DNA from: Burkholderiales bacterium
Lineage (GTDB): Bacteria > Pseudomonadota > Gammaproteobacteria > Burkholderiales > Burkholderiaceae_C
Reading direction: 5' to 3'
Assembly: GCA_027484405.1 (NCBI GenBank)
Contig: JAIXTA010000141.1
Span: forward strand, 1 to 64,000
DNA length: 64,000 nucleotides
In this document: piece by piece, positions 29,603-53,830 of the stretch
How positions within the stretch are numbered: position 1 is the first letter of the stretch
Layout of the letters: each line of letters starts with the position of its first letter
Notes under the pieces: generated by a model
What the model was told of the DNA's origin: nothing
What the model saw: only the letters and a program-made list of their open reading frames with translations
The model's database searches: none
Translations under genes and position numbers: made by a program

Positions 29603-30166
29603 ATGAGAATTCTCGGCATCGACCCCGGCTCGCGCATCACCGGCTTCGGCGTGGTGGACGTGGACGGCGCACGCGTGAGCTATGTGGCCAGCGGCGTCAT
29701 CCGCACCAGCGAAGGCGAGCTGGCCGAGCGGATCGACGAGATCGTGCACGGCATTGCCGAGGTGGCGCAGACCTACCAGCCCACCTGCGCTGCCATCGAG
29801 CAGGTCTTTGTGAACGTCAACCCCAAGGCCACGCTGATGCTCGGCCAAGCCCGCGGCGCCGCGATTGCGGCACTCGTCCTGGCCAAGCTGCCGGTGACGG
29901 AATACACCGCCCTGCAGGTCAAGCAAAGCGTGGTGGGCTATGGCAAGGCCAAGAAGGAGCAGGTGCAGGAAATGGTCACGCGCCTGCTCAATCTGCCGGG
30001 CACGCCGAGCGCCGATGCGGCCGACGCCCTGGCCTGCGCGCTGGCCCACGCCCACGCAGGCAAGCTGGCCGGCTCGCTCAACACCTTGGCAGCCCAGGCC
30101 GGCGTGCAACTGGGTTTGCGCGGCCGCCGGGGCGATGTCAAGACGCGCCGCGGGCGGCTGGTCTGA
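29603..30166 (+). CDS. ruvC: Holliday-junction resolvase RuvC
   Basis: 187 aa. Dimeric endonuclease that cleaves Holliday junctions. All four acidic catalytic residues are present at the same positions as in E. coli: D7 ([14 protein letters not shown]), E66 (CAAIEQVFV), D138 and D141 ([15 protein letters not shown]). Contains [11 protein letters not shown] and [17 protein letters not shown] short basic tail ([14 protein letters not shown]) extends past the usual C-terminus. ruvA follows 81 bp downstream; ruvB is separated and lies at 36270. Confidence 0.97.
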
Positions 30167-30247: not shown

Positions 30248-30820
30248 ATGATCGGCCGAATCACTGGCACCCTGATCGAGAAGAACCCCCCCGCCGTGCT
30301 GGTGGATTGCAATGGCGTCGGCTACGAGATCGACGTGCCCATGAGCACGCTCTACAACCTGCCCGAAGCGGGGCACAAGGTCACGCTGCTCACGCACTTT
30401 GTGGTGCGCGAGGACGCGCAGTTGCTCTATGGGTTTGGTACGGCTGCAGAACGCGCCACCTTCCGCGAGCTGATCAAGATCAGCGGCATCGGGCCGCGCA
30501 CCGCACTGGCGGTGCTCTCCGGGATGAGTGTGACGGAACTGGCCCAGGCCATCACCCTGCAGGAAGGCGGGCGCCTGCAGAAGGTGCCGGGTATCGGCAA
30601 GAAGACCGCCGAGCGCCTGCTGCTTGAGCTCAAGGGCAAGCTGGGTGCGGATATCGGCGCCACGGCTGCTGCCGCGAATGACGACAGTGCAGACATCCTG
30701 CGCGCCCTCACCGCCCTGGGCTACAACGACAAGGAAGCGCTCGCTGCGCTCAAGAGCGTGCCCGCGGGGAGCTCGGTGAGCGAGGGGATCAAGCTCGCGC
30801 TGAAGGCGCTGAGCAAGTGA
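30248..30820 (+). CDS. ruvA: Holliday-junction branch-migration protein RuvA
   Basis: 190 aa. Tetrameric junction-binding subunit of RuvAB. The N-terminal OB fold starts [20 protein letters not shown], followed by [12 protein letters not shown], then helix-hairpin-helix motifs [18 protein letters not shown] and [20 protein letters not shown], and a C-terminal RuvB-contacting domain ([21 protein letters not shown]). Full length. Convergent with the carbonic anhydrase gene, 32 bp away. Confidence 0.97.
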
Positions 30821-36269: not shown

Positions 36270-37328
36270 ATGCCGATCCAGACCGACGAATTCGCCGCCG
36301 CGCCGCGCGTGGTGTCTGCTGCCAGCACCAGCCCGAACGAGGAAGCGGTGGAACGCGCCCTGAGGCCGCAGCGCATCGATGACTATGTCGGTCAGGTGAA
36401 GATCCGCGAGCAGCTGGAGATCTTCGTGGGCGCCGCACGCGGCCGCGCCGAGGCGCTGGACCATGTGCTGCTGTTCGGCCCGCCGGGCCTGGGCAAGACG
36501 ACCCTCGCGCACATCATCGCCCGCGAGATGGGCGTGAATCTGCGCCAGACCTCCGGCCCCGTACTCGAGCGCGCCGGCGACCTCGCCGCCCTGCTCACCA
36601 ACCTCGAGAAGAACGACGTCCTCTTCATCGACGAGATCCATCGCTTGAGCCCGGTGGTCGAGGAGATCCTGTACCCGGCGCTCGAGGACTACCAGATCGA
36701 CATCATGATCGGCGAAGGTCCCGCGGCCCGCTCGGTCAAGCTCGACCTGCAGCCCTTCACCCTGGTGGGCGCCACCACGCGCGCCGGCATGCTCACCAAC
36801 CCGCTGCGCGACCGCTTCGGCATCGTCGCGCGGCTGGAGTTCTACACGGCCGACGAACTGGCGCGGATCGTCACGCGCTCCGCCGGCCTGCTCGACACGC
36901 CTATCGTGGCCGAGGGCGCCACGGAAATTGCCAAACGCAGCCGCGGCACGCCACGCATTGCCAACCGCCTGCTGCGCCGCGTGCGCGACTATGCGCAGGT
37001 CAAGGGCAACGGCACCATCACCCAGGCGGCTGCCCAGGCCGCGCTGCAGATGCTCGATGTCGACCACATCGGTTTCGACGTCATGGACAAGAAGCTGCTT
37101 GAGGCCGTGATCCACAAGTTCTCGGGCGGCCCCGTCGGCCTGGACAACCTCGCCGCCGCCATCGGCGAGGAGCGCGAGACCATCGAAGACGTGATCGAGC
37201 CCTACCTCATCCAGCAGGGCTACCTGCAGCGCACTCCGCGCGGGCGGATTGCCACGCCGAGCGCCTACCGCCACTTCGGCCTGGCTGCGCCGGCGGGTAC
37301 GCCCAACGGGGACTTGTTCGGGGCTTGA
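36270..37328 (+). CDS. ruvB: Holliday-junction helicase motor RuvB
   Basis: 352 aa. AAA+ hexameric motor of Ruv[23 protein letters not shown], Walker [10 protein letters not shown] (70-78), Walker [12 protein letters not shown], sensor [20 protein letters not shown], sensor [22 protein letters not shown], and a C-terminal winged helix ending [21 protein letters not shown]. Separated from ruvC-ruvA by 5.4 kb holding carbonic anhydrase, argP/argO and a peptidase. Confidence 0.97.
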
Positions 37329-41747: not shown

Positions 41748-42664
41748 CCGCGCCCCAAGCCATTTCAGGCAACCCCTTCGTGGTGTCTGCACCCGACCCC
41801 AGCCTGCCCCTGTCCATCCGCGGCATGAGCAAGGCCTATGAAGGCAAGGCCGTGCTGGATGCACTCGATCTCGATGTGCCCGCTGGCACGGTGCTGGGTC
41901 TGCTCGGCCGCAACGGCGCAGGCAAGAGCACGCTGATGGAATGCGCCCTCGGCCTGCGCGGCATGGAGCTGGGCCAGGCCCGGCTGTTCGGCGAGGACGC
42001 CATGCAGCTGACCGACGCCACCCGCGCTCGGCTGGGCTACGTGCCGCAGGACAGCGGCATCTTTGAGTGGATGACGGCCAGCCAGCTGCTCGAGTACTTC
42101 GCCAGCTTCTATCCGCGCTGGAACACGGCCAAGGTGGACATGCTGCTTGCGCGCTGGGGCATCGAGCGCAACAAGAGCATCAACAAGATGTCGGGCGGGC
42201 AGAAGCAACGCCTGTCCATCATCCGCGCCCTGGCGCCGGACCCGGAGCTGCTGGTGCTGGACGAACCCGTGGCTGCACTCGACCCCGCCGGGCGGCGCGA
42301 CTTCCTGCGCGAACTGGTGGACAGCGTGGAACGCGGCACCACCATCATCTTCTCCACGCACATCCTCACGGATCTGGAGCGCATTGCCATGGACGTGGCC
42401 TTCCTGCGCGAGGGCAAGATCTCCGTGCAGGCGCCGCTGGATGAGCTGATCGACCAGGCGCGCCGCGTCACCGGCCCGGCCAGCGTGCTCACGGGCAAGA
42501 TGCCGCGCGCGGTACTGGGCAGCCAGCGTCTGCCCGACGGCCAGCTCAGCGCCGTCGTGCGAGTGGACTCGCGCAGCGAAGCCGAACTCGCCAATCTGGT
42601 GCCGCAGGGCGTGCGCATCGACCGCGTCGGCCTGGAAGACCTGTTTGTGGAGCTGACGCAATGA
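41744..42664 (+). CDS. ABC transporter ATPase of the YtrA-type operon
   Basis: 306 aa. Walker A GRNGAGKSTLME, Q-loop YVPQDSGIFEWM, signature MSGGQKQRLSIIRAL, Walker B LLVLDEPVAALDPAGR and H-loop FSTHILTDLE. The C-terminal extension of ca. 80 residues is seen in drug/lantibiotic-type export ATPases. Coupled to the regulator upstream and the permease downstream by ATGA overlaps, so the three work as one unit. Substrate unknown. Confidence 0.92.
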   Translation: MTAPQAISGNPFVVSAPDPSLPLSIRGMSKAYEGKAVLDALDLDVPAGTVLGLLGRNGAGKSTLMECALGLRGMELGQARLFGEDAMQLTDATRARLGYVPQDSGIFEWMTASQLLEYFASFYPRWNTAKVDMLLARWGIERNKSINKMSGGQKQRLSIIRALAPDPELLVLDEPVAALDPAGRRDFLRELVDSVERGTTIIFSTHILTDLERIAMDVAFLREGKISVQAPLDELIDQARRVTGPASVLTGKMPRAVLGSQRLPDGQLSAVVRVDSRSEAELANLVPQGVRIDRVGLEDLFVELTQ

Positions 42665-44151
42665 GCGCCAACGTTCGCTCGGCCGCGCGCTTCGGCCGGC
42701 AGGAGTGGCTGGTGCTCAGGCAGGTGGGCACCCTGATGAGCCGCGGCTTCCGCTGGATTCTTTTGGCGGTGGTTGTTGTGTTCGGCTTGGTGGTGGGCGG
42801 CGCTGCCTACTGGTCGGGCGACACGCCGCTATGGCGCGCGGCACTCATCGGCCTTGTGCCGGCGGCGATTGTCGGGCTGCTTGCGATCGCCGTGGGCGTG
42901 CCGGCCACAGTGCAGCGCCAGCAGTCCAGCGTGGTGGCGTTCAATGCGCCAAGGCACCACCGGGTGCTCCAGCGGGTGCTGAGCCTGGCCTGGCTCGTCA
43001 CGATGGGCGTCATCTGCATCGGTGCGGCCTTGATGACGCTGATCAGCGCAAAGGCGGTCAGCCTCTCAGGCATGGCGCAGGGCATGAGCGTGGCCGCGCT
43101 GCTGGCCTTCCTGATGATGCTGAGCCTGCGCATGCAGCAGCTGTGGTTGTTCTGGCTCGTGTTCTGGTTGTTGCCGCGCCCGGTCCGGGACTTCGCAAGC
43201 GACCAATTGACCCTGCTGTACACGGCGCTTGGTACCTGGAGCCTGCTGGTCTTCGCAGGCCTGGCCTGGGGCCTGCACCGGGTGCTGCAATGGGCCTACT
43301 TTCGCGGCACGGCCTCGGACCGGGCCAGCTGCGCCAAGTCCTTCTATCTGCAGCAGCGCAACGGCAACAACATGACTGCCGTGCGTCCCACGGGCAACCG
43401 CCTGGCAGATCTGCTCAACATCGGTCTGGTGGGGCGCTGGAGCCTGGTCCGCAGCCGTCATTGGACGCCGACCGCACGACTCCGTCTGGCCATGGGACCG
43501 TCCTGGAGCCCATGGACCCTGCTTGCCTATGTGCCGGTACTGGCGCTGGCGATTGGGGTGATTCTCATCTGGACGGGGACGCAACCGCTTGCGCATGTGG
43601 ATAGCGCACCGGCCTTTTCCCAGGGCGTGTGGATCGGGATCATGGCGATGACCGCCAGCCTCGGAGGCAACTTCATGCTGACGCTGGGCGCCACCCGCAC
43701 GGAGCAGGGCCTGGCCATGCTGCTGCCCGGTGCACCGGCGCCGCAGCGGCGCGCTGCCTGGCTGTCCTCGCAGGCACTGCGCCTGGCGGCGGCCAACAGC
43801 GGTGTATTGATCGCCGTGAGCCTGCTCACTGGCTGGGCCCTGGGCGCACCTATCTGGGCGCTTCTTGTGTTGCTGCAAGTACTGCTGGCGGTGAATGTGA
43901 TTGACCTGATGGTCTCGCAACTGCCGCCGCGCCTGTTCGAGCAGCCCGGACGCGCATCCATGGCCTTGATCTTGATGAAGATCATGGCGGCCATGCTGAG
44001 CGTGGCGGTGTTCATGTCGTTGCGCGAGCGCCCAGACTGGAGCTGGCAGATTCTTGTGCTGTGGTGCGGAACGGCACTTCTGGCCACCTTGCTCCTGCGC
44101 GCGCGCCGTCTGCGCGGCGCGCCCGCGCTGCCCGTGGGGAACTTCGGGTAA
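42661..44151 (+). CDS. ABC transporter permease of the YtrA-type operon
   Basis: 496 aa, about ten to twelve membrane segments (ILLAVVVVFGLVVGGAAYWS, LIGLVPAAIVGLLAIAVGVP, WTLLAYVPVLALAIGVILIW and others), with soluble loops between. No recognisable signature beyond ABC-2-like topology. Translationally coupled to the ATPase (ATGA), so assigned by context as its membrane partner. Ends a four-gene operon that starts with the 60-aa membrane protein. Confidence 0.85.
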   Translation: MSANVRSAARFGRQEWLVLRQVGTLMSRGFRWILLAVVVVFGLVVGGAAYWSGDTPLWRAALIGLVPAAIVGLLAIAVGVPATVQRQQSSVVAFNAPRHHRVLQRVLSLAWLVTMGVICIGAALMTLISAKAVSLSGMAQGMSVAALLAFLMMLSLRMQQLWLFWLVFWLLPRPVRDFASDQLTLLYTALGTWSLLVFAGLAWGLHRVLQWAYFRGTASDRASCAKSFYLQQRNGNNMTAVRPTGNRLADLLNIGLVGRWSLVRSRHWTPTARLRLAMGPSWSPWTLLAYVPVLALAIGVILIWTGTQPLAHVDSAPAFSQGVWIGIMAMTASLGGNFMLTLGATRTEQGLAMLLPGAPAPQRRAAWLSSQALRLAAANSGVLIAVSLLTGWALGAPIWALLVLLQVLLAVNVIDLMVSQLPPRLFEQPGRASMALILMKIMAAMLSVAVFMSLRERPDWSWQILVLWCGTALLATLLLRARRLRGAPALPVGNFG

Positions 44152-44295
44152 GCCCTAGGTTCTGCGGCGCGTGACTGTTGGGGGCACGCAAGCGCGGTGC
44201 GAGCAGCAGTACGGCGCGGGGCAGGCCGCCACCTATCATCCGCAGCTTCGCAACCCGGCCCGCCACCCGCGGGCCGCGCTCATCGGAGCCCGAGC

Positions 44296-46326
44296 ATGAC
44301 CCTGCGCCGAGCCGCACTGACCCTTGCCCTGGCCACAGCGGGCACCCTGCCCGCGCTGGCCCAAACCGCCGCCACGCCTGCCGTGCCGGCCACACCAGCC
44401 ACCAGCGCCGCGGCCGTGATTGCGCCGAATGCCAATCTGCGCGCCGAGGGCATTCCGCCCATCCAGCGCACGATTGCCGAACGCGTGGCGGCCTACACCG
44501 ACTTCCGCGGCTACGCCTTCATGGGCTGGCACCCGAAGAACCGCAGCATGCTGGTGCGCCACCGCGGCGCCACCGACAATCTGCCGCAGGTCTATCTGCT
44601 CGACGGCCCCAGCGGCACCCTGACCAAGCTCACCGACTTTGCCGAATCGGTGCAGGGCGCCTCCTTCGAGCCCAAGGAAGGGCGCTATCTGGTGTACGGC
44701 CGCGACACGGGGGGCAATGAAGCCACCAAGGTCTACCGCATGGACCTGCCCAGCCGCGAGAGCACGCTGCTGTCCAACCCGGACGAACGCTCCACGGCCA
44801 TGTGGACCGAGAGGGGCGACCGCATCCTGATCAGCAGCGTGCCGCTGGATCGCACGGCCCAGGGCGGCACGCGCGCCCAGGTCACCACCACGATGACCTT
44901 CGTGAACCCGCTGAAGCCCGAGGAGAAGACCAAGCTGGCCGAGCTGCCCGGTGGCGGCTGGTTCGGCGGCCGCTTCTCGCCGGACGACAGCCGCCTGGCA
45001 CTGGTGCAGTACCGCACCAACTCCGACACCGAGCTCTTTTTGCTCGACGCCAAGACGGGTCAGCGCGAGCGCATCCTGCCTGCCGCCGGCCAACCGGCAG
45101 CCGGCTACTTCCCGGCCGCATGGAGCAAGGACGGCAAGCGACTGTTCCTGACCACCAACGCCGGCAGCGAGTTCAACGAACTCGCGGTCTACGACCTCGC
45201 CAGCAAGACCCTGACCTCGCTGACCAAGCACATCCCCTGGGATGTCTCTGGCGTGGATTTGTCCAGGGACGGCAAGCTGCTGATTGCCGAGATCAACAAC
45301 AACGGCCGCGACGAGATGCGCCTGTTCGATGCCGTCACCGGCAAGGAGCTGCCTGCGCCCAAGGTGCCCGCCGGCGCCATTGGCGGCACGAGCTGGCACG
45401 AGAGCCTGGGCGACGAGGTGGCCTTTTCGCTGAACTCGCCGCAGAGCCCGGGTGATGCCTACTCGCTCAATGTGAAGACCGGCGTGGTCACGCGCTGGAC
45501 CACCGCGTTTGCACCGGCCACGGTCGATCCGGGCAGCTTTGTCACGCCGCAGCTCATTCAATGGAAGAGCTTTGACGGCCGCATGATCTCCGGCTGGCTG
45601 TTTGCGCCGGATGCGAAGAAGTTCCCCGGCAAGCGCCCGGTCTTCGTGGACTTCCACGGCGGCCCCGAGGCCCAGAGCACGGTGCGCTTCATGGGCCGCT
45701 GGAATTACTACATCAACGAAATGGGCATTGCCGTGATCCTGCCCAACGTGCGCGGCTCCACCGGCTATGGCAAGAGCTTCGCGCAGCTGGACAACGGCTT
45801 CCTGCGCGAGGACAGCGTCAAGGACGGCGGCGCGCTGCTTGACTGGCTGGCCACCCAGCCCAACCTGGACGCAAAGCGCGTAGTGGTCAGCGGCGGCAGC
45901 TACGGCGGCTACATGAGCCTGGCCATGGCCACGAACTACAGCGAGCGCCTGCGCGGCGCCATCGACATCGTGGGCATCAGCCACTTTGTCACCTTCCTGA
46001 ACAACACCGAGAGCTACCGCCGCGATCTGCGCCGCGTGGAGTACGGCGATGAGCGCGACCCGAAGATGCGCGAGTTCCAGGAGAAGATTGCGCCGCTGAA
46101 CAACGCACAGCGCATCAAGGTGCCGCTGTTCGTGATCCACGGAAAGAACGACCCGCGCGTGCCCTACACCGAGGCCGAACAGATCGTGCAGAAGGTCCGC
46201 GCCAACGATGTGCCGGTCTGGTACCTGCTGGCCGACAACGAAGGCCACGGTTTTGCGCGGCGCGTCAACGCAGACTTCCAGTTCTACGCTACCGTCAAGT
46301 TCCTGGAGACTTATCTTCTGAACTGA
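44296..46326 (+). CDS. Secreted S9-family peptidase (acyl-peptide hydrolase / DPP IV-like)
   Basis: 676 aa from MTLRRAALTLALATAGTLPA (44296), a signal peptide ending near ALAQ; the track start lies 33 codons upstream. An N-terminal beta-propeller (ca. 70-400) is followed by an alpha/beta hydrolase domain: PVFVDFHGGPEAQS oxyanion region, nucleophile S535 in VSGGSYGGYMS, D619 in GKNDPRVPY and H651 in NEGHGFARR. This is the S9C-like layout, distinct from the S9A enzyme at 33910. Acts in the periplasm or outside the cell on peptides. The following gene starts 1 bp after the stop. Confidence 0.92.
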   Translation: MTLRRAALTLALATAGTLPALAQTAATPAVPATPATSAAAVIAPNANLRAEGIPPIQRTIAERVAAYTDFRGYAFMGWHPKNRSMLVRHRGATDNLPQVYLLDGPSGTLTKLTDFAESVQGASFEPKEGRYLVYGRDTGGNEATKVYRMDLPSRESTLLSNPDERSTAMWTERGDRILISSVPLDRTAQGGTRAQVTTTMTFVNPLKPEEKTKLAELPGGGWFGGRFSPDDSRLALVQYRTNSDTELFLLDAKTGQRERILPAAGQPAAGYFPAAWSKDGKRLFLTTNAGSEFNELAVYDLASKTLTSLTKHIPWDVSGVDLSRDGKLLIAEINNNGRDEMRLFDAVTGKELPAPKVPAGAIGGTSWHESLGDEVAFSLNSPQSPGDAYSLNVKTGVVTRWTTAFAPATVDPGSFVTPQLIQWKSFDGRMISGWLFAPDAKKFPGKRPVFVDFHGGPEAQSTVRFMGRWNYYINEMGIAVILPNVRGSTGYGKSFAQLDNGFLREDSVKDGGALLDWLATQPNLDAKRVVVSGGSYGGYMSLAMATNYSERLRGAIDIVGISHFVTFLNNTESYRRDLRRVEYGDERDPKMREFQEKIAPLNNAQRIKVPLFVIHGKNDPRVPYTEAEQIVQKVRANDVPVWYLLADNEGHGFARRVNADFQFYATVKFLETYLLN

Positions 46327-46327
46327 C

Positions 46328-47962
46328 ATGGCACAAGGCGCTGCGGCTTCCGACGTCTGGCTCGATGCACAAGCCAACTGGGAGGAGCTGCACGCCCGAC
46401 CCGAAGAAGTCAGTGAACGCGCGCACCGGCTCGTCACCTCTGTGCAAGGCGACGACCGGGCCTGGGGGCACCTGCTGATCGCCACGCGCGAGCAGCACTA
46501 CGGTGACGCGCGCGTGGCGCGCGTGCATCTGCGCCATGCCCATGAAGCCGCCCGGCATTCGGGCTCCGGTCGACTCCGCTGGCTGCTTGCCGCCGCGCAG
46601 GGCATGCAGGACGCCCTGGAGGGCGACGCCGCACTCGCCTTGCGAGGCGCACGGCAGCTCGAGGCCACCTGCAGCGAGCAGGCCATGCCCGAGGACCTGC
46701 TCCAAAGCCTGTACGTGCAGTACGCCGCCAGCCTGCGCCTGCAGGACATGGACGGGGCGTTCATGGCGCTGTTTGCAGCGCTCGACTGTGCCGAGCGCTT
46801 CCGCCAGCGACCCGAACGAGCCTGGCTCTTTCTCAAGCTGGCCGAACACGCGATTGATGCCGAGGACTGGCACTACGCGGGCGAATGCCTGCGCGAAAGC
46901 GAACTGGCACTACGTACCTTGGGCAACGACTGGCTGGCATCACGCCTCATTGCGCAGCAGGCGCTGCTCGGGGCGGCAATTGCTCCGCCCGAGCAGGCCC
47001 TGAGCGCCGTGCTCCAGGCAATGTCAGCCGACGCGCGACAGCCGCAGATGCTTCAACATCGCCTGGCGCTGTCTGCGGCCGATCTGCAGACCCGCCGCGG
47101 CGATTTCGAGAGCGCGCAGCAGACCCTGGTCGGAGCGCGCACGCTGGTGCCGATCGACCAGCCGAGGATCTACCAGATCCAGCGCGTCCATGAAAGCCGT
47201 CTGCAGCTCGCCATGGGCCGATTTGCCGAGGCGGCTCGCGGGCTGGAGGGGGCCTTGGCAGCCCTGCCTGACGAGGAGCTGCGCGCAGACCGCCACCTGT
47301 GCCGCTTGGCCATGGATGCAGCCCAGGCGCGGGCGGGCGAGGATGCCTATGCCAAGGCCTATGCCCACGCTGTGACCCACGGCACGCTCGTCGAGGGCTA
47401 TCAGCAGCGCTGCGCCGGACTGCGTCTGAGGATGCAGAAGGCACGCTTCGAGGTCGCGCGACGCCGCACCGAGCAGGACCAGGCGTTCGCCATGCAGCTG
47501 CAGATCCAGCAGCTTGCGCTGCGCGACCCCATCAGCGGCCTGTACACGCGGCGCCACCTTGTCCAGAGCCTGCCCGCGCTGCTCTCGCGGTGCTCCCGCA
47601 CGCAGACCCCGGTGGCGGTCGTGGCGCTGCGCTTCACGGACGCCGGAGGCGCCGAGTTCGTCGACGGCGCGATCGAGACGCGCCTGATCAATGCGCTGGC
47701 GATCGCGCTGGAGTCCCAATTGCGGGCATATGACTTCGGCTGCCGCTACGACGACGACATCGTGCTGGTCGTGCTCGAGCACTGCGACGCCAATCAGGCG
47801 CGCACAAGGCTGACCCATCTGAGCGAGCGCGCCCTGCCCATGCTCGACGGCACAGCCGTGCAATTGACGCTGGGCGTAGCGGACACACGCAGCACCGGTT
47901 ACGAACCCCAGACGCTCATCGATGCCGCATTGGGGGGCGCACTGGAATCCGCCCCCGGCTGA
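46328..47962 (+). CDS. TPR-like protein with degenerate GGDEF domain
   Basis: 544 aa, no membrane segment. Residues ca. 1-370 are all-helical with TPR-like periodicity (VARVHLRHAHEAARHSGSGR, DWHYAGECLRESELALRTLG). After a coiled coil (RLRMQKARFEVARRRTEQDQ) a GGDEF fold begins at LALRDPISGLYTRRHLVQSL. The metal-binding and GGDEF positions are lost: where RxGGDEF is expected the sequence reads GCRYDDDIVLVV. It therefore probably cannot make c-di-GMP and may act as a receptor or scaffold. Starts 1 bp after the S9 peptidase stop, so co-transcribed. Confidence 0.8.
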   Translation: MAQGAAASDVWLDAQANWEELHARPEEVSERAHRLVTSVQGDDRAWGHLLIATREQHYGDARVARVHLRHAHEAARHSGSGRLRWLLAAAQGMQDALEGDAALALRGARQLEATCSEQAMPEDLLQSLYVQYAASLRLQDMDGAFMALFAALDCAERFRQRPERAWLFLKLAEHAIDAEDWHYAGECLRESELALRTLGNDWLASRLIAQQALLGAAIAPPEQALSAVLQAMSADARQPQMLQHRLALSAADLQTRRGDFESAQQTLVGARTLVPIDQPRIYQIQRVHESRLQLAMGRFAEAARGLEGALAALPDEELRADRHLCRLAMDAAQARAGEDAYAKAYAHAVTHGTLVEGYQQRCAGLRLRMQKARFEVARRRTEQDQAFAMQLQIQQLALRDPISGLYTRRHLVQSLPALLSRCSRTQTPVAVVALRFTDAGGAEFVDGAIETRLINALAIALESQLRAYDFGCRYDDDIVLVVLEHCDANQARTRLTHLSERALPMLDGTAVQLTLGVADTRSTGYEPQTLIDAALGGALESAPG

Positions 47963-47971
47963 GGGCGGCGA

Positions 47972-49975
47972 TCAGCGGGCCGCTTCGTCGCGGCGCTCGG
48001 CCGGCGCTGGCTCACGCGGCGGCACGAGGAACTGCAGCGGCGTGCGCAGCATTCGGCGTCCGAGCAAGCGCAGCAGCAAGCCGATGCGCACCCCAGACGC
48101 GCCCCGAGCGCGCACTGCCATGAACAGGGACAGCCCGAAGCTGACTGCCACGTTCATGGCGCCGATGCTCAACACCCCGAGCGCGAACAACGGAATCCAC
48201 CACAGCGCCATCGACTGCCCGCCGTGAACCACGGCGAAGGCCGTGTTGGCCGAGGAGAATGCGACGTGTCGGATGTCCAATCCGGTCCCGGTCAAGGCCC
48301 CCAGGAAGCTCACTCCGCCGAGCAGGAATCCGAACAGCAGGTTGCCGGACAGCGCACCCAGGTGCTCGCCCGCGTAGTTGCCGACACGCGCAGCTCGCCG
48401 GGCGCCGAGAAGGCGCAGCAGTGCAGGATGCACCGCGAGTCGGCTGGATAGACGGGTCACGGCGGCGAAGTTGTCGAACCAGCCACTGATCATGCCCGCC
48501 AGGAACAAGCACGTGCCTGCCACCGCGGCAAACAGCAGTGACGGGCCAGCCCAGACGCTCGCATCAGCCAGGAAGCCCGCCGCCTTGGTGTCATTGATGA
48601 GGCTGTGACCGGTGATGAGCGGCCACAGGGCGGCCAGCAGCGCTGCAACCGGGACCGCCATGAGGACGTTGCCGGCAATCGCCACAGTCTGGCTGCGCGC
48701 CATCTTCACGCACAGGTCGGCTGTCCTCTGCAGCGACAGGGGCGTCCCGTCGTCTTCAGCGAGTCGGCGCGCGAGCACGGCGGCCGTCATGGCCGGTTGC
48801 TTGGTGGCCACCGTGCCATGGATCATGTGGATGAACACGAATCCCAAGCCGTAGTTGAGGCAAACGAAGAGTGCCTCCCAGAGTGGCGGGAAGTGCGCAG
48901 CCGCGATCTTGATCTTCAGGATCGCCATGAAGGCCACCACGACGCCAGCCACGCAGGCCGCGCGCAACAAGGCGGCCCACTCCGTGCGGGAATTGGCGAC
49001 ATAGTGTTCGCCACTCTGGCTGGCGCTTTCGGTCATCCGGTAGGCAAGATCGGCGCTGGACCGACGAATCAAGGCCCGCAGACTGCCGTGCTGCGCGCGC
49101 GCGGCCAGCAGATCAAGGAGCAGGCTCGTACGGCGGGCGGGTGCACCCTCATCCTCGTCCAGAGCGAGCACGATCTGGCGCAGGCGGATCACGGCGTCGC
49201 GCAAGCTGCGGAGCTCGTGCGTCAGCGCAGCGGTCGTGCCCGATTCGCGCACCGCCTCGCGCCATTTGGCCACCAGGGTTTCGGCGCGCGACAGGCGCGC
49301 GAGCAGGTCCGCCCTGGATCTCCCCGGCGGCTCGCCATTTGTCAATGTGCTGACAGCCGCGGGCAGACCGATGAACACGTCGGAATCAAGCCGGGCAGGC
49401 TGGATGAGTGTCTGCAGATCTGGAGAGAGCGTGGCAGACGCGGCCCGCAATGCGATCCACTGCATGGCGGATTGCAGTTCCTCGCGCACATGGTCCGCCG
49501 CTGCGCCTTCGGGCGCCCACGCAGGCGACTGGCTCAATAGCGCGATCAGGCGCCCCCACGCCTGCAACTCGTCCGCCTGCAGTTCGGCAGACGCCAGCCC
49601 GGCACCCGCCAGCGCATGGAGCACGGCTTGCGCACCAGACGCGGGCACGACGGGCGGGACGATCTTTCTGCCGATTCGCCCCAGCGTCTGCGCAAGCAGG
49701 CTTTGGCCGGACGCGAGCCCCACGTCGGCCAGGTCGGCACGCAGCGGGCCTGACAGGAGTTCGCCTGCGAGCAGCTGCCCGAGTGCGTCACGCCATACGG
49801 GCTCGCGGTCAAGCAAATCACAGACCCGGTGCACGCCAGGACCGACCTGCTCGGCAGCCAGCAGGCTGGCGAGGACCCGCAGCCGCGCAATGCGATCAGT
49901 GCGCGGGTCCTGTCCGATCTGTCGAAGCACCGACTCGATCTTTTCCTTCGCGTAGCTGCTCAGCGAAGCCTGCAT
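47972..49975 (-). CDS. Gcr-family membrane protein (often annotated site-specific recombinase)
   Basis: 667 aa. The N-terminal half is helical and soluble (IARLRVLASLLAAEQVGPGV, RLSRAETLVAKWREAV). The C-terminal half has about six membrane segments (LLRAACVAGVVVAFMAILKI, VLMAVPVAALLAALWPLI, SLLFAAVAGTCLFLAGMISG and more), with GYGLGF-type and GMISGWFDNFA motifs of the Neisseria Gcr family. Despite the database name, I see no Tyr- or Ser-recombinase catalytic motif, and the topology is that of an integral membrane protein. Convergent with the TPR/GGDEF gene and divergent from ybgC. Confidence 0.8.
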   Translation of the reverse strand: MQASLSSYAKEKIESVLRQIGQDPRTDRIARLRVLASLLAAEQVGPGVHRVCDLLDREPVWRDALGQLLAGELLSGPLRADLADVGLASGQSLLAQTLGRIGRKIVPPVVPASGAQAVLHALAGAGLASAELQADELQAWGRLIALLSQSPAWAPEGAAADHVREELQSAMQWIALRAASATLSPDLQTLIQPARLDSDVFIGLPAAVSTLTNGEPPGRSRADLLARLSRAETLVAKWREAVRESGTTAALTHELRSLRDAVIRLRQIVLALDEDEGAPARRTSLLLDLLAARAQHGSLRALIRRSSADLAYRMTESASQSGEHYVANSRTEWAALLRAACVAGVVVAFMAILKIKIAAAHFPPLWEALFVCLNYGLGFVFIHMIHGTVATKQPAMTAAVLARRLAEDDGTPLSLQRTADLCVKMARSQTVAIAGNVLMAVPVAALLAALWPLITGHSLINDTKAAGFLADASVWAGPSLLFAAVAGTCLFLAGMISGWFDNFAAVTRLSSRLAVHPALLRLLGARRAARVGNYAGEHLGALSGNLLFGFLLGGVSFLGALTGTGLDIRHVAFSSANTAFAVVHGGQSMALWWIPLFALGVLSIGAMNVAVSFGLSLFMAVRARGASGVRIGLLLRLLGRRMLRTPLQFLVPPREPAPAERRDEAAR

Positions 49976-50042
49976 CCTCTACCCCCTGCGTGGCCACACT
50001 GCGCACCGCGGCCGATCCCGGTGGCCGGTGCACAATGCGCCG

Positions 50043-50495
50043 ATGAATCCGCTCAGCACCCTTGCACCCTTCGGGGCGTTCAGGCACTCGATCCGTGTGT
50101 ACTTTGAGGATACCGATGCCGCCGGAATCGTGTACTACGCCAACTACCTGAAGTTTATGGAACGCGCGCGCACCGAGTGGCTGCGTGCGCTCGGTCATCC
50201 GCATGCGGATATGGTCCAGCGTGACCGGAGCGTCTTCGTGGTGCAAGCGGTGCAGATGCAGTACCTGGCACCAGCCCGGCTCGAGGAGATGCTCGAAATC
50301 GCCACCTGCATCCGCGAAGTCGGTCGTGCCAGTCTGACGCTCGACCAGTGGGCGCTGCGAGACGGGCACTGCCTGGTGGCAAGTCGAATCCGCCTGGGCC
50401 ATGTGGACGCCGGAACGCTGCGCCCCAAGCGAATTGCAAGCCATCTCGTTGGGCTGCTGGAAGCACGGCTCAAGGAGCCTGGCGAGGCACGCTAG
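50043..50495 (+). CDS. ybgC: Tol-Pal-associated acyl-CoA thioesterase YbgC
   Basis: 150 aa from MNPLSTLAPFGAF (50043); an ATG at 50028 is possible. Hot-dog fold 4HBT thioesterase with the catalytic motif EDTDAAGIVYYANYLKFMER, then ERARTEWLRALG and VQAVQMQYLAPARLEEMLEI. Hydrolyses acyl-CoA or acyl-ACP and is the usual first gene of tol-pal operons. Here its stop codon overlaps that of a convergent glycosyltransferase gene (TAG/CTA), which separates it from tolQ. Confidence 0.93.
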   Translation: MNPLSTLAPFGAFRHSIRVYFEDTDAAGIVYYANYLKFMERARTEWLRALGHPHADMVQRDRSVFVVQAVQMQYLAPARLEEMLEIATCIREVGRASLTLDQWALRDGHCLVASRIRLGHVDAGTLRPKRIASHLVGLLEARLKEPGEAR

Positions 50496-51694
50496 CCGAG
50501 GCTGGCTTCGACGCGCTGCACGATCCAATCGCCCGCAGAGTCTGGCGCAGCAACACAGGCGTCTTGCTGCTCACGAACAAACTGACGAACACGGGCAGCG
50601 AAGCGCTCGGTGTCGTGTTGCAACGCATTGATCGCTGCCGCCAGCTCGCTGTCTGGGGCGCCCGGTCGAACGACATGGCCCAGGCCAAGCGCCGCAATGC
50701 GTTCCCCTGTCAGATACTGCTCTGCCTGGGTTGGTACCACGAGAACCGGGAGTCCCGCGGCCATCGCCTGCAAAGTGGCACCCTGCCCGCCATGGGTGAT
50801 GGCAAAGCGCGCTCCGGAGAATGCCGCGGCAAGGTCGGCAATCCAGCGCTCGATTGCCACGCTGGAACCGTCCAGCGACTGTCGGGCTTCTGCGTCGAGG
50901 TCAGGTACCGCCGCGAGGGTATTCACGCCGGCACGCGCAAGCCCCTGCAGGACGGGCAGTGCGGCGCCAGAAGGGTCCCAACGCAGATAGGCCACGGCAT
51001 CGCGCACCGGGCGGAGGGCATCAAGGCCTGGTGGCGGCAGTGTGTTCGGTCCGACCGGGCCGAGATACGCCGCATCTCGCCGAAAGTGCGCGTACGGGTC
51101 GAGTGCAGGCCAGGTCGTCAATACCGGGGCGGACGCGGCGTACAGCTCCGCCATGGAACCCATGGGTGTGCGTCCACGCGCTGCAAGCGCGGCATTGCTG
51201 GCCAACAGGGCGCGGTATTCGGCCGCTAGCAGGCGCTCGCGCGGTACGGGCGCCCAGTGGCGAAAGCCCGGCCAGGGCGCCCAGGCCGGCGCAATGCAGA
51301 AACCCGCACCCACGGAGAGCGCAGGCAGACCAAGGCAGCGCGCAGCCAGCAAGGCTGTCGGGGCGAAGTCTTCAACCAGGAGATCGGCGTTGGCCTGGGC
51401 CAGAGCGCGTTCCCAGACGCGCAGGGCGGTGCCCAGCGCTTCGGGGTCCAGAAACCCCGCCACCTCGATGCATTCCGCAAAACTGCCCGGATCAGGAATC
51501 GTCGGCGCAACGTGAGGCGCATCCACCGCCAGCGTCAGATAGCGGTGGGGGGCCTTGGATCGAGCCGCCTTGGCCGCATGAACGGCAAACACGACCTCAT
51601 GCCCCCGCGCCGCCAAGAGATCGGCCAGCCATAGGGAAACGGTCTCGTGTCCCGACCCGGCACCCAGTTCCCAGGCCAGCATGATGCGAGCCAT
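50492..51694 (-). CDS. UGT/MGT-like glycosyltransferase inserted between ybgC and tolQ
   Basis: 400 aa from MARIMLAWELGAGSGHETVS (51694), fixed by AGGAGG five bases upstream; the 445-aa track ORF is over-extended. GT-B fold: N-terminal AGSGHETVSLWLADLLAARG (acceptor side, GSGH motif), C-terminal FAITHGGQGATLQAMAAGLP and VVPTQAEQYLTGERIAALGL, the nucleotide-sugar site of the GT1/GT28-like group. Acceptor unknown. It lies on the strand opposite to the tol-pal genes and interrupts the normally contiguous ybgC-tolQ pair. No transposon ends are visible. Confidence 0.85.
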   Translation of the reverse strand: MARIMLAWELGAGSGHETVSLWLADLLAARGHEVVFAVHAAKAARSKAPHRYLTLAVDAPHVAPTIPDPGSFAECIEVAGFLDPEALGTALRVWERALAQANADLLVEDFAPTALLAARCLGLPALSVGAGFCIAPAWAPWPGFRHWAPVPRERLLAAEYRALLASNAALAARGRTPMGSMAELYAASAPVLTTWPALDPYAHFRRDAAYLGPVGPNTLPPPGLDALRPVRDAVAYLRWDPSGAALPVLQGLARAGVNTLAAVPDLDAEARQSLDGSSVAIERWIADLAAAFSGARFAITHGGQGATLQAMAAGLPVLVVPTQAEQYLTGERIAALGLGHVVRPGAPDSELAAAINALQHDTERFAARVRQFVREQQDACVAAPDSAGDWIVQRVEASLG

Positions 51695-51844
51695 CCATTC
51701 CTCCTGCGATTCAGACGGACTGAACCTCGCGCCCATGTGTCGGTCTGTAAGCGCAGGCTTTGTAACATCGAGCTGAATTTCCCCGAAGGACCGGCATCGG
51801 ATCCATCGGCCCGGTCCTTCCACATCCAATTCTCATCGCAACCC

Positions 51845-52525
51845 ATGTTAAGCACCTCGGATCTGTCTGTTCTCACTCTCATCACGCAGGCCAGCGTGGT
51901 CGTGCAGATCGTGATGGCCGGGCTGGTGCTGGCCTCGCTGGTGTCGTGGTACACGATCTTCCGCAAGTACTTCGGACTGTCGTCTGCCATGGCAGCCACA
52001 CGCCGGTTCGAGCATGAGTTCTGGAGCGGGGGTGATCTCGCCGCCCTGCTGCAGCGCGCCCAGCAGCGCAAGGGCCGAGATGGCGGGCCGCTGGAACGAA
52101 TCTTCGAGGCAGGTCTGCATGAGTTCATGAAGGCGCGGACCAGTCGGCCTGGTGACGCAGGGAGCCAGATGGATGGCGCACGTCGTGCCATGCGGGCCAC
52201 CTATCAGCGCGAAATGGACGCGCTGGAGCGGAAGCTGCCTTTCCTTGCATCGGTCGGCTCGGTGTCGCCGTATGTCGGCCTCTTCGGAACGGTCTGGGGG
52301 ATCATGAATGCCTTCCGGGGGCTGGCCAATGTGCAGCAAGCCACGCTTGCGCATGTGGCGCCCGGGATTGCGGAGGCCTTGATCGCGACCGCCATCGGGT
52401 TGTTTGCAGCCATTCCCGCGACCGTGGCCTATAACCGCTTCGTTGCAGACTCCGATCGCTTGGCCAACCGCTTCGAGACCTTCATGGACGAGTTCTCGAA
52501 CATCCTGCAGCGTCAGACGCGCTGA
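51845..52525 (+). CDS. tolQ: TolQ, inner-membrane motor subunit of Tol-Pal
   Basis: 226 aa from MLSTSDLSVLTLITQASVVV (51845); the track start is 66 codons too early. MotA/TolQ/ExbB family with three membrane helices: near residue 20, and LASVGSVSPYVGLFGTVWGI and AEALIATAIGLFAAIPATVA. With TolR it converts proton-motive force into movement of TolA. Because the gene upstream is on the other strand, its promoter must lie in the 150-bp gap 51695-51844. Confidence 0.95.
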   Translation: MLSTSDLSVLTLITQASVVVQIVMAGLVLASLVSWYTIFRKYFGLSSAMAATRRFEHEFWSGGDLAALLQRAQQRKGRDGGPLERIFEAGLHEFMKARTSRPGDAGSQMDGARRAMRATYQREMDALERKLPFLASVGSVSPYVGLFGTVWGIMNAFRGLANVQQATLAHVAPGIAEALIATAIGLFAAIPATVAYNRFVADSDRLANRFETFMDEFSNILQRQTR

Positions 52526-52539
52526 GCGGGAGCTGCCTC

Positions 52540-52968
52540 ATGAGCGACTGGCGGGTCCGGCGGGCCAAGCGATTCAAGTCCGAGATCAACGTCGTGCCGT
52601 ACATCGACGTGATGCTGGTGCTGCTGATCATCTTCATGGTTTCGGCGCCGCTGATCGCGCCATCGGTTGTCAATCTGCCCTCGGTCGGTTCGCGCAGCAC
52701 GCAGCAGTCCGTGCGCCCTGTCGAACTGGTCATCGACAAGACAGGTCGCATCATTGAAGCCGTGGACCGAGAGACCGCAAAGCCGCTTGGCGTCACCCGG
52801 ATCGAGGACATCGCTGCCGCCGTACTGCTGCTGCAGCAAAAGGCCGAAAAGCCCGTCGTGATCTCCGCAGACAAGGACGTGCGCTATGAGGAGGTCCTCA
52901 AGGTCATGGATGGTCTGCAGCGCAAAGGCGTCAAGCGCGTGGGCCTCGCTGTGAAGCCCGCAAGCTGA
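52540..52968 (+). CDS. tolR: TolR, inner-membrane motor subunit of Tol-Pal
   Basis: 142 aa. ExbD/TolR family: short cytoplasmic start with RFKSEINVVPYIDVMLVLLI, carrying the essential proton-path Asp (YIDVMLVLL), one membrane helix, then a periplasmic domain ending KRKGVKRVGLAVK-like (QRKGVKRVGLAV). 14 bp after tolQ and 7 bp before tolA; GGGAG ribosome site. Confidence 0.95.
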   Translation: MSDWRVRRAKRFKSEINVVPYIDVMLVLLIIFMVSAPLIAPSVVNLPSVGSRSTQQSVRPVELVIDKTGRIIEAVDRETAKPLGVTRIEDIAAAVLLLQQKAEKPVVISADKDVRYEEVLKVMDGLQRKGVKRVGLAVKPAS

Positions 52969-52975
52969 GATCGGC

Positions 52976-53830
52976 ATGCCACTGGACGCTCCAACAGCCA
53001 CTGCGCGCATCGACATGGATCGCCTGGCCGCCATTGCGGCAATGGCGGCACCAGGACGAAACGTGCCGCCGCCTCCCGGTGGCTGGCAGTCGTGGGGGCT
53101 GTCACTCGCCGCGCACGGCGCGCTGGTTGCTGCATTGCTGTTCAGCATCCGCTGGCAGTCTGCGCACGTCGAGGCGATAGAGGCCGAACTCTGGAGCCCG
53201 ACGCCGCAGCTCGCCGCGCCGCCTGCGCCACCACCACACCCGCCACTCGCTGTCGAAGCGCCCAGGCCCGAACCCAAGGTGGACGATGCCGCACTTCAAG
53301 CCGAAATCGCCCTGCGCAAGATCAGGGAAATCGAGGATCGCAGGCGCGCCCTGGAACGGGAGCGACAGGAGCAGGACCGTCGCGAGCGACTGGAGCGTGA
53401 AAAGGTGCTCAAGGCCGAGCGCGACAAGCAGGCGCGTGCCAAGGCCGAAGCGGAAGCCGCCGAACAACGGCAACAGGACAACGTGCGCCGTCTGCAGGCA
53501 CAGGCATCACAACCGCTCGGCTCCGGGAGCGCAAATGCCACGTCCAGCCCTCGGGGTGATCCCACCTTCAATGCAAAGGTGGTGGCTTGTGTACGCCCGA
53601 ATGTGAGCTTCCCGATCGGCTTGGTTCGCGGCAATGCACCCAGCGAGTTTCTCGTCGAAAGGCTCCCTGATGGCAGCATCGGCCGGGTAACCGTGCGACG
53701 CTCGGGCGGGAACTCTGCGTTTGATGAGGCGGTCATTCGTGGTATCCGCGCATGCAATCCCTTCCCTCGCCCTCCAGGCGACGCAAGGGAATTCACTATC
53801 AGTTACCGCCCCGAAGACACGGGCGGTTGA
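52976..53830 (+). CDS. tolA: TolA, periplasm-spanning protein of Tol-Pal
   Basis: 284 aa. One N-terminal membrane helix (LSLAAHGALVAALLFSI), a Pro-rich segment, and a long charged helix (ALERERQEQDRRERLEREKV and Ala/Lys/Glu repeats) that bridges the periplasm. The C-terminal TonB-like domain (SFPIGLVRGNAPSEFLVERL, VRRSGGNSAFDEAVIRGIRA) contacts Pal and TolB. The Ala/Lys-rich domain is shorter than in E. coli TolA (421 aa), as in many betaproteobacteria. Confidence 0.93.
   Translation: MPLDAPTATARIDMDRLAAIAAMAAPGRNVPPPPGGWQSWGLSLAAHGALVAALLFSIRWQSAHVEAIEAELWSPTPQLAAPPAPPPHPPLAVEAPRPEPKVDDAALQAEIALRKIREIEDRRRALERERQEQDRRERLEREKVLKAERDKQARAKAEAEAAEQRQQDNVRRLQAQASQPLGSGSANATSSPRGDPTFNAKVVACVRPNVSFPIGLVRGNAPSEFLVERLPDGSIGRVTVRRSGGNSAFDEAVIRGIRACNPFPRPPGDAREFTISYRPEDTGG

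Follow-up and report, generated by a model that had tools for sequence, protein, structure and literature searches.

The window, by which we mean the whole 64-kb stretch of DNA that was analysed, keeps the usual order and strand of the tol-pal operon from ybgC to cpoB (ybgC-tolQRAB-pal-cpoB), and differs from it by a 1.2-kb opposite-strand gene that separates ybgC from tolQ. The genes tolQ (51845-52525; TIGR02796, 280 bits against a cut-off of 221), tolR (52540-52968; PF02472) and tolA (52976-53830; TIGR02794, 59.7 bits against 59.45) follow each other in order on the plus strand, as they do in tol-pal operons; together with ybgC, an acyl-CoA thioesterase gene (50043-50495, plus strand; TIGR02799, 145 bits against 141), tolQ and tolA score above their curated cut-offs and tolR slightly below (TIGR02801, 123 bits against 127). 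The adjacency typical of the operon is lost: ybgC is co-directional with tolQ but 1.35 kb away from it. The gene in between (50492-51694, minus strand; ATG at 51694, stop at 50492-50494) encodes a 400-aa GT-B glycosyltransferase of the GT1/EryCIII-like type (hereafter GT), as judged from its ORF and translation, Pfam, an AlphaFold model and dN/dS, and is preceded by a Shine-Dalgarno-like AGGAGG upstream of its ATG (51700-51705, minus strand). It meets ybgC (ATG at 50043, TAG at 50493-50495) tail-to-tail, the two stop codons sharing the palindrome CTAG (50492-50495), i.e., a 4-bp overlap, and its start is separated from the tolQ ATG at 51845 by a 150-bp gap (51695-51844). All three features had been described in an earlier, sequence-only reading of this DNA (an opposite-strand 400-aa GT-B enzyme between ybgC and tolQ, overlapping stop codons and a 150-bp gap ahead of tolQ), and its coordinates proved correct to the base, with the gene families borne out by NCBIfam and Pfam. 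On the other side, a SpecificRecomb-family gene (47972-49975, minus strand; PF10136) is divergent from ybgC.

Within the genus AAP99, a small group of freshwater and sludge bacteria of which enrichments are reported (PMC10734543), the comparison covered n = 2 genomes, i.e., the window's species and Beta proteobacterium AAP99 (contig LJIA01000012.1), which was sequenced independently. Gene order, strands and the tail-to-tail overlap of ybgC and the GT gene are found again in the latter (17 bp of overlap there versus 4 bp in the window), and the whole 64-kb window is collinear with it; the recurrence of this layout in an independently sequenced genome rules out a chance ORF or an assembly artefact. 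Identity between the two reaches 67% for the GT, 66-67% for ybgC and 95% for tolQ. Given that both genomes share the layout and that the GT ORF has a dN/dS of ~0.13, with dS near saturation, the gene has a long history at the level of the genus and is evolving under purifying selection, and the timing of its insertion is loosely bounded by two genomes. The entire SpecificRecomb-ybgC-GT block (47972-51694) is only 64-67% identical to its AAP99 counterpart, while the flanks (44197-47962 and tolQ-tolB) are 81-95% identical, possibly reflecting replacement or faster evolution of the block. Further upstream, a 496-aa ORF without a Pfam match (42661-44151), situated after an ABC ATPase gene, shares only 30% identity with the ORF at the corresponding place in AAP99.

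Among 61 genomes of relatives, tolQ was found in 60, and the DNA upstream of it was read in all of these. Outside the genus, ybgC lies on the same strand within ~270 bp of tolQ in 51 of 58 Burkholderiales genomes; the remaining seven have no adjacent ybgC, with ruvB directly ahead of tolQ in five and other genes in two. The statement that ybgC and tolQ are contiguous in most proteobacteria thus holds for these relatives and is nevertheless too simple, as ybgC is sometimes absent or replaced while the order of the tol genes is conserved (PMC7391070). Owing to these recorded absences and replacements, a change at the ybgC end of the operon represents a known kind of variation. A gene inserted between ybgC and tolQ was seen in none of the 58 other Burkholderiales genomes, and the synteny check suggested by the sequence-only reading accordingly places the split in the AAP99 genus only; an insertion ancestral to the whole order, the outcome that this reading had set against its own claim, is contradicted by the same count. 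These comparisons support a genus-restricted split, and our literature search found no paper on a glycosyltransferase between ybgC and tolQ.

The predicted AlphaFold model of the GT (pLDDT 90.7, pTM 0.89) displays the two Rossmann domains of the GT-B fold, and a Foldseek search with it returned OleI as the best PDB match (2iya, E 2e-20, TM ~0.7). The nearest solved folds are OleI, GtfD, CalG4 and CalG1, i.e., macrolide and glycopeptide/enediyne transferases, and the best PDB sequence matches agree. The EryCIII-like C-terminal domain (PF06722) is recognized at 35.6 bits (gathering cut-off 31.7) and the GT28-type C-terminal domain (PF04101) is also above its cut-off. As the score for the macrolide glycosyltransferase subfamily TIGR01426 is 71.8 bits, far under the cut-off of 260, the GT is by this measure a relative and not a member of that subfamily. 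It shares with GT1-type enzymes (OleI/OleD, CalG4, YjiC; EryCIII-like_C) the GT-B fold, a C-terminal HGGxG...P...EQ donor motif and an N-terminal GH with His16 and Asp109, but is only ~23% identical to them over the fold alignment and differs by an N-terminal WELGxxxGH signature of its own. Across 32 homologues W8, E9, G15, H16, P316 and E325 are invariant and D109 is at least 90% conserved, H16 and D109 both being part of the region that aligns with OleI. By analogy with GT1 enzymes, whose catalytic dyad and donor site we take to correspond to these positions, H16-D109 would be the putative catalytic dyad and HGG...EQ the putative donor site. The fold and this analogy suggest that the enzyme most likely glycosylates a small or a lipid acceptor, with a nucleotide sugar as the donor.

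The 150-bp gap contains a conserved non-coding block of 53 bp (51719-51771), which may be a divergent control region for the GT, for tolQRA or for both and in which 48 of 53 positions are identical to AAP99, as against a difference of ~60-69% at neighbouring synonymous sites (62-69% in ybgC and the GT). In each of the two genomes, 25 bp separate the block from the GT start, and the distance of the block to tolQ differs by a 23-nt indel. This indel places it out of frame between the two species, so an N-terminal extension of TolQ was rejected; an extension of the GT is also unlikely, since the 17 codons show amino-acid-changing differences only and zero synonymous ones, the annotated Met is also where the homologues begin, and conservation is lacking in the 25 nt beside the ATG. 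Such identity despite near-saturated synonymous sites supports a DNA-level control element for the GT, tolQ or both, and the block most likely holds control sites for the GT and, judging by position, for tolQRA. It also speaks, indirectly, for a control region in this gap; that the tol genes need a promoter of their own there, as claimed earlier, does not follow from it, as the block may serve the GT, tolQ or both and a scan for sigma70-type promoters found no site. A terminator scan found no terminator-like site, and antisense read-through from tolQ-ward transcription is therefore possible. The 21-bp core of the block (TGTAAG...CTTTGTAAC) occurs a single time in the genome and was not found within 5 mismatches in other tol loci or upstream of tol in other genera, on which grounds a regulon sharing this core was rejected. 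A sigma-E-like GAACCT-N16-TCTGT within the block is conserved in both species, but sites of this quality number 19, against 11-23 in shuffles, and the match is at chance level. No Rfam family of structured RNA was matched. Closer to tolQ, RNA folding predicts a GC-rich hairpin in its leader (GAAGGACCGG...CCGGTCCTTC, 51785-51820) with a perfect 10-bp stem; it is present as a single copy in the window's genome and absent from AAP99, so a repeated element was ruled out.

The GT family is patchily distributed, with members in 6 of the 61 relatives' genomes and in 41 of 399 genomes of the order, which answers the question of genome distribution raised together with the synteny check. Members outside the genus are 26-38% identical to the window GT, and no relative above ~40% identity was found there (399 order genomes, 77 loci). 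A recent foreign origin is not indicated by composition, as the GC3 of the GT matches that of its right-hand neighbours; GC3 along the window drops near position 50000, from 0.81-0.90 (2-50 kb) to 0.68-0.81 from ybgC onward, including the GT, tol and recC.

Outside the family to which the window belongs, many Burkholderiales families have ruvB (together with ruvC and ruvA where these were seen) directly ahead of ybgC-tolQRAB. The window has kept its ruv genes upstream of tol and co-directional with it, yet spread out: ruvC at 29603-30166 and ruvA at 30248-30820 (both plus strand, by Pfam), ruvB at 36270-37328 (plus strand, PF05496) and then ybgC at 50043, ruvC and ruvA being a remnant of the ruvCAB-ybgC-tol linkage of the order. 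The compact cluster is thereby stretched over more than 20 kb (29603-52525) and interpolated with carbonic anhydrase, a LysR/LysE pair, prolyl oligopeptidase, ABC transporter, GGDEF and SpecificRecomb genes, so that the GT is one among several interpolations in this stretch. Unexpectedly, a large clade of uncultured Burkholderiales (f47) carries one GT of this family, or two in tandem, in the ruvC-ruvA interval, and the genes often overlap there by 4 bp in ATGA (15 loci of the type yebC-ruvC-GT(-GT)-ruvA-ruvB(-ybgC-tolQ)); a second group (f21, two loci) also has a GT, in the order ruvC-GT-ruvA-ruvB, which belongs to a different GT lineage. These clusters share with the window the GT family and the neighbourhood, but their GTs are co-directional, 30-35% identical to the window's and leave ybgC-tolQ contiguous where seen, whereas the window GT is inverted at ybgC-tolQ. 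In the GT trees the AAP99-genus copy sits on a long branch outside the f47 and f21 groups; this placement is weakly supported, and the nearest neighbour of the copy shifts from tree to tree. One clade for all three groups was compatible with a quick tree (74 rows, p-AU 0.587) and weakly rejected in a careful one (36 rows, p-AU 0.025); p-AU was 0.135 for the AAP99 copy with f47 alone (43 rows), and the f47 and f21 copies alone as one group were not rejected (p-AU 0.452, 36-row careful tree). On these trees, a separate arrival of the AAP99-genus copy is favoured, not proven, and its common descent with the ruvC-ruvA copies is uncertain.

Taken as a whole, we consider it likely that, before the AAP99 genus divided into its two known lineages, ybgC and tolQ were separated by the reversed insertion of a single-gene cargo, a GT1/macrolide-transferase-like member of this patchy Burkholderiales family, and that this gene has since been kept by selection, with a divergent control region and a sugar-transfer role. 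Position and strand are the same in both genomes and the gene is under purifying selection; a single insertion event is what we infer from this. The insertion would have left ybgC as the last gene ahead of a convergent junction, and tolQRAB-pal-cpoB would start downstream of the 150-bp divergent region, the conserved 53-bp element presumably functioning there. The retained enzyme would use the putative N-terminal His16-Asp109 dyad and C-terminal HGG...EQ donor site, in keeping with the conservation of both and the predicted fold. We thus regard the locus, with good support, as a local variant of the tol-pal operon, i.e., a real, stable, selected, genus-level reversed insertion. That the ORF is instead spurious or decaying, a functionless leftover of an insertion, could be entertained because long spurious ORFs arise at high G+C, but it is intact in both genomes, has full-length homologues with invariant motif residues and a confident GT-B model, and the selection test (dN/dS ~0.13) effectively refutes this idea, to which we give almost no credence.

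Two further explanations draw on the ruv-tol neighbourhood. The GT may have resided there since an early Burkholderiales ancestor (ruvC-GT-ruvA-ruvB-ybgC-tolQ) and have been moved and inverted within it in the AAP99 lineage. Such a history is in line with the family members found between ruvC and ruvA in f47 (where ybgC-tolQ follows a few kb downstream) and in f21, with the ruvC, ruvA and ruvB genes retained upstream of tol in the same orientation and with the two tree tests (74 and 43 rows) that did not reject it. However, the careful 36-row tree weakly rejects the three-group clade, identity is ~30-35%, position and strand differ, no GT lies in the ruvC-ruvA gap of the window, and none of the sampled genomes of the same family carries a family GT near tol; we consider this history unlikely. 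Less likely still, in our estimate, is that the GT and Tol-Pal act together in maintaining the envelope (e.g., with the GT in glycolipid synthesis) and that its repeated ruv-tol location reflects co-selection. In three Burkholderiales families the ruv-tol cluster harbours GTs of this family, which represent at least two, perhaps three, lineages; by our own estimate (~10 kb of 4 Mb) they should seldom land there by chance, and YbgC has been linked to phospholipid metabolism (PMC7391070). Nevertheless, most relatives are found away from tol, with an RTX-type protein as the neighbour in Comamonas and unrelated neighbours in Duganella and Piscinibacter, and the f47 and f21 GTs lie in the ruv part, not adjoining tol. 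Given that the family was not found in ~90% of Burkholderiales genomes, Tol-Pal does not generally need such an enzyme. A location beside tol need not imply work with Tol-Pal.

As the tol-pal gene order is unusually stable, a fixed and selected opposite-strand insertion provides a natural setting in which to ask how an operon important to the envelope copes with being severed from its upstream promoter. In its most far-reaching form, the WELGxxxGH GT1-like family would have a recurrent, selected association with ruvCAB-ybgC-tol (at least two, perhaps three lineages), would make a glycosylated envelope factor or a glycolipid, acting in coordination with Tol-Pal or cell division, and control of tolQ would have been rewired in the AAP99 genus via the divergent GT-tolQ region; we regard this as a speculative and unlikely proposal. 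That GTs of this family recur at the ruv-tol locus is nonetheless the aspect most worth following, and the ruvC-GT-ruvA clusters make the role of an uncharacterised transferase family testable. Two smaller observations concern family members elsewhere. The yebC-ruvC-GT-GT cluster of uncultured Burkholderiales also turned up on a MAG contig whose title, Bordetella parapertussis, is probably a mislabel. In Comamonas kerstersii, judging by translation alone, a relative of the GT is flanked by a very long RTX/cadherin-repeat-like protein on one side and an HlyD-like secretion gene on the other.
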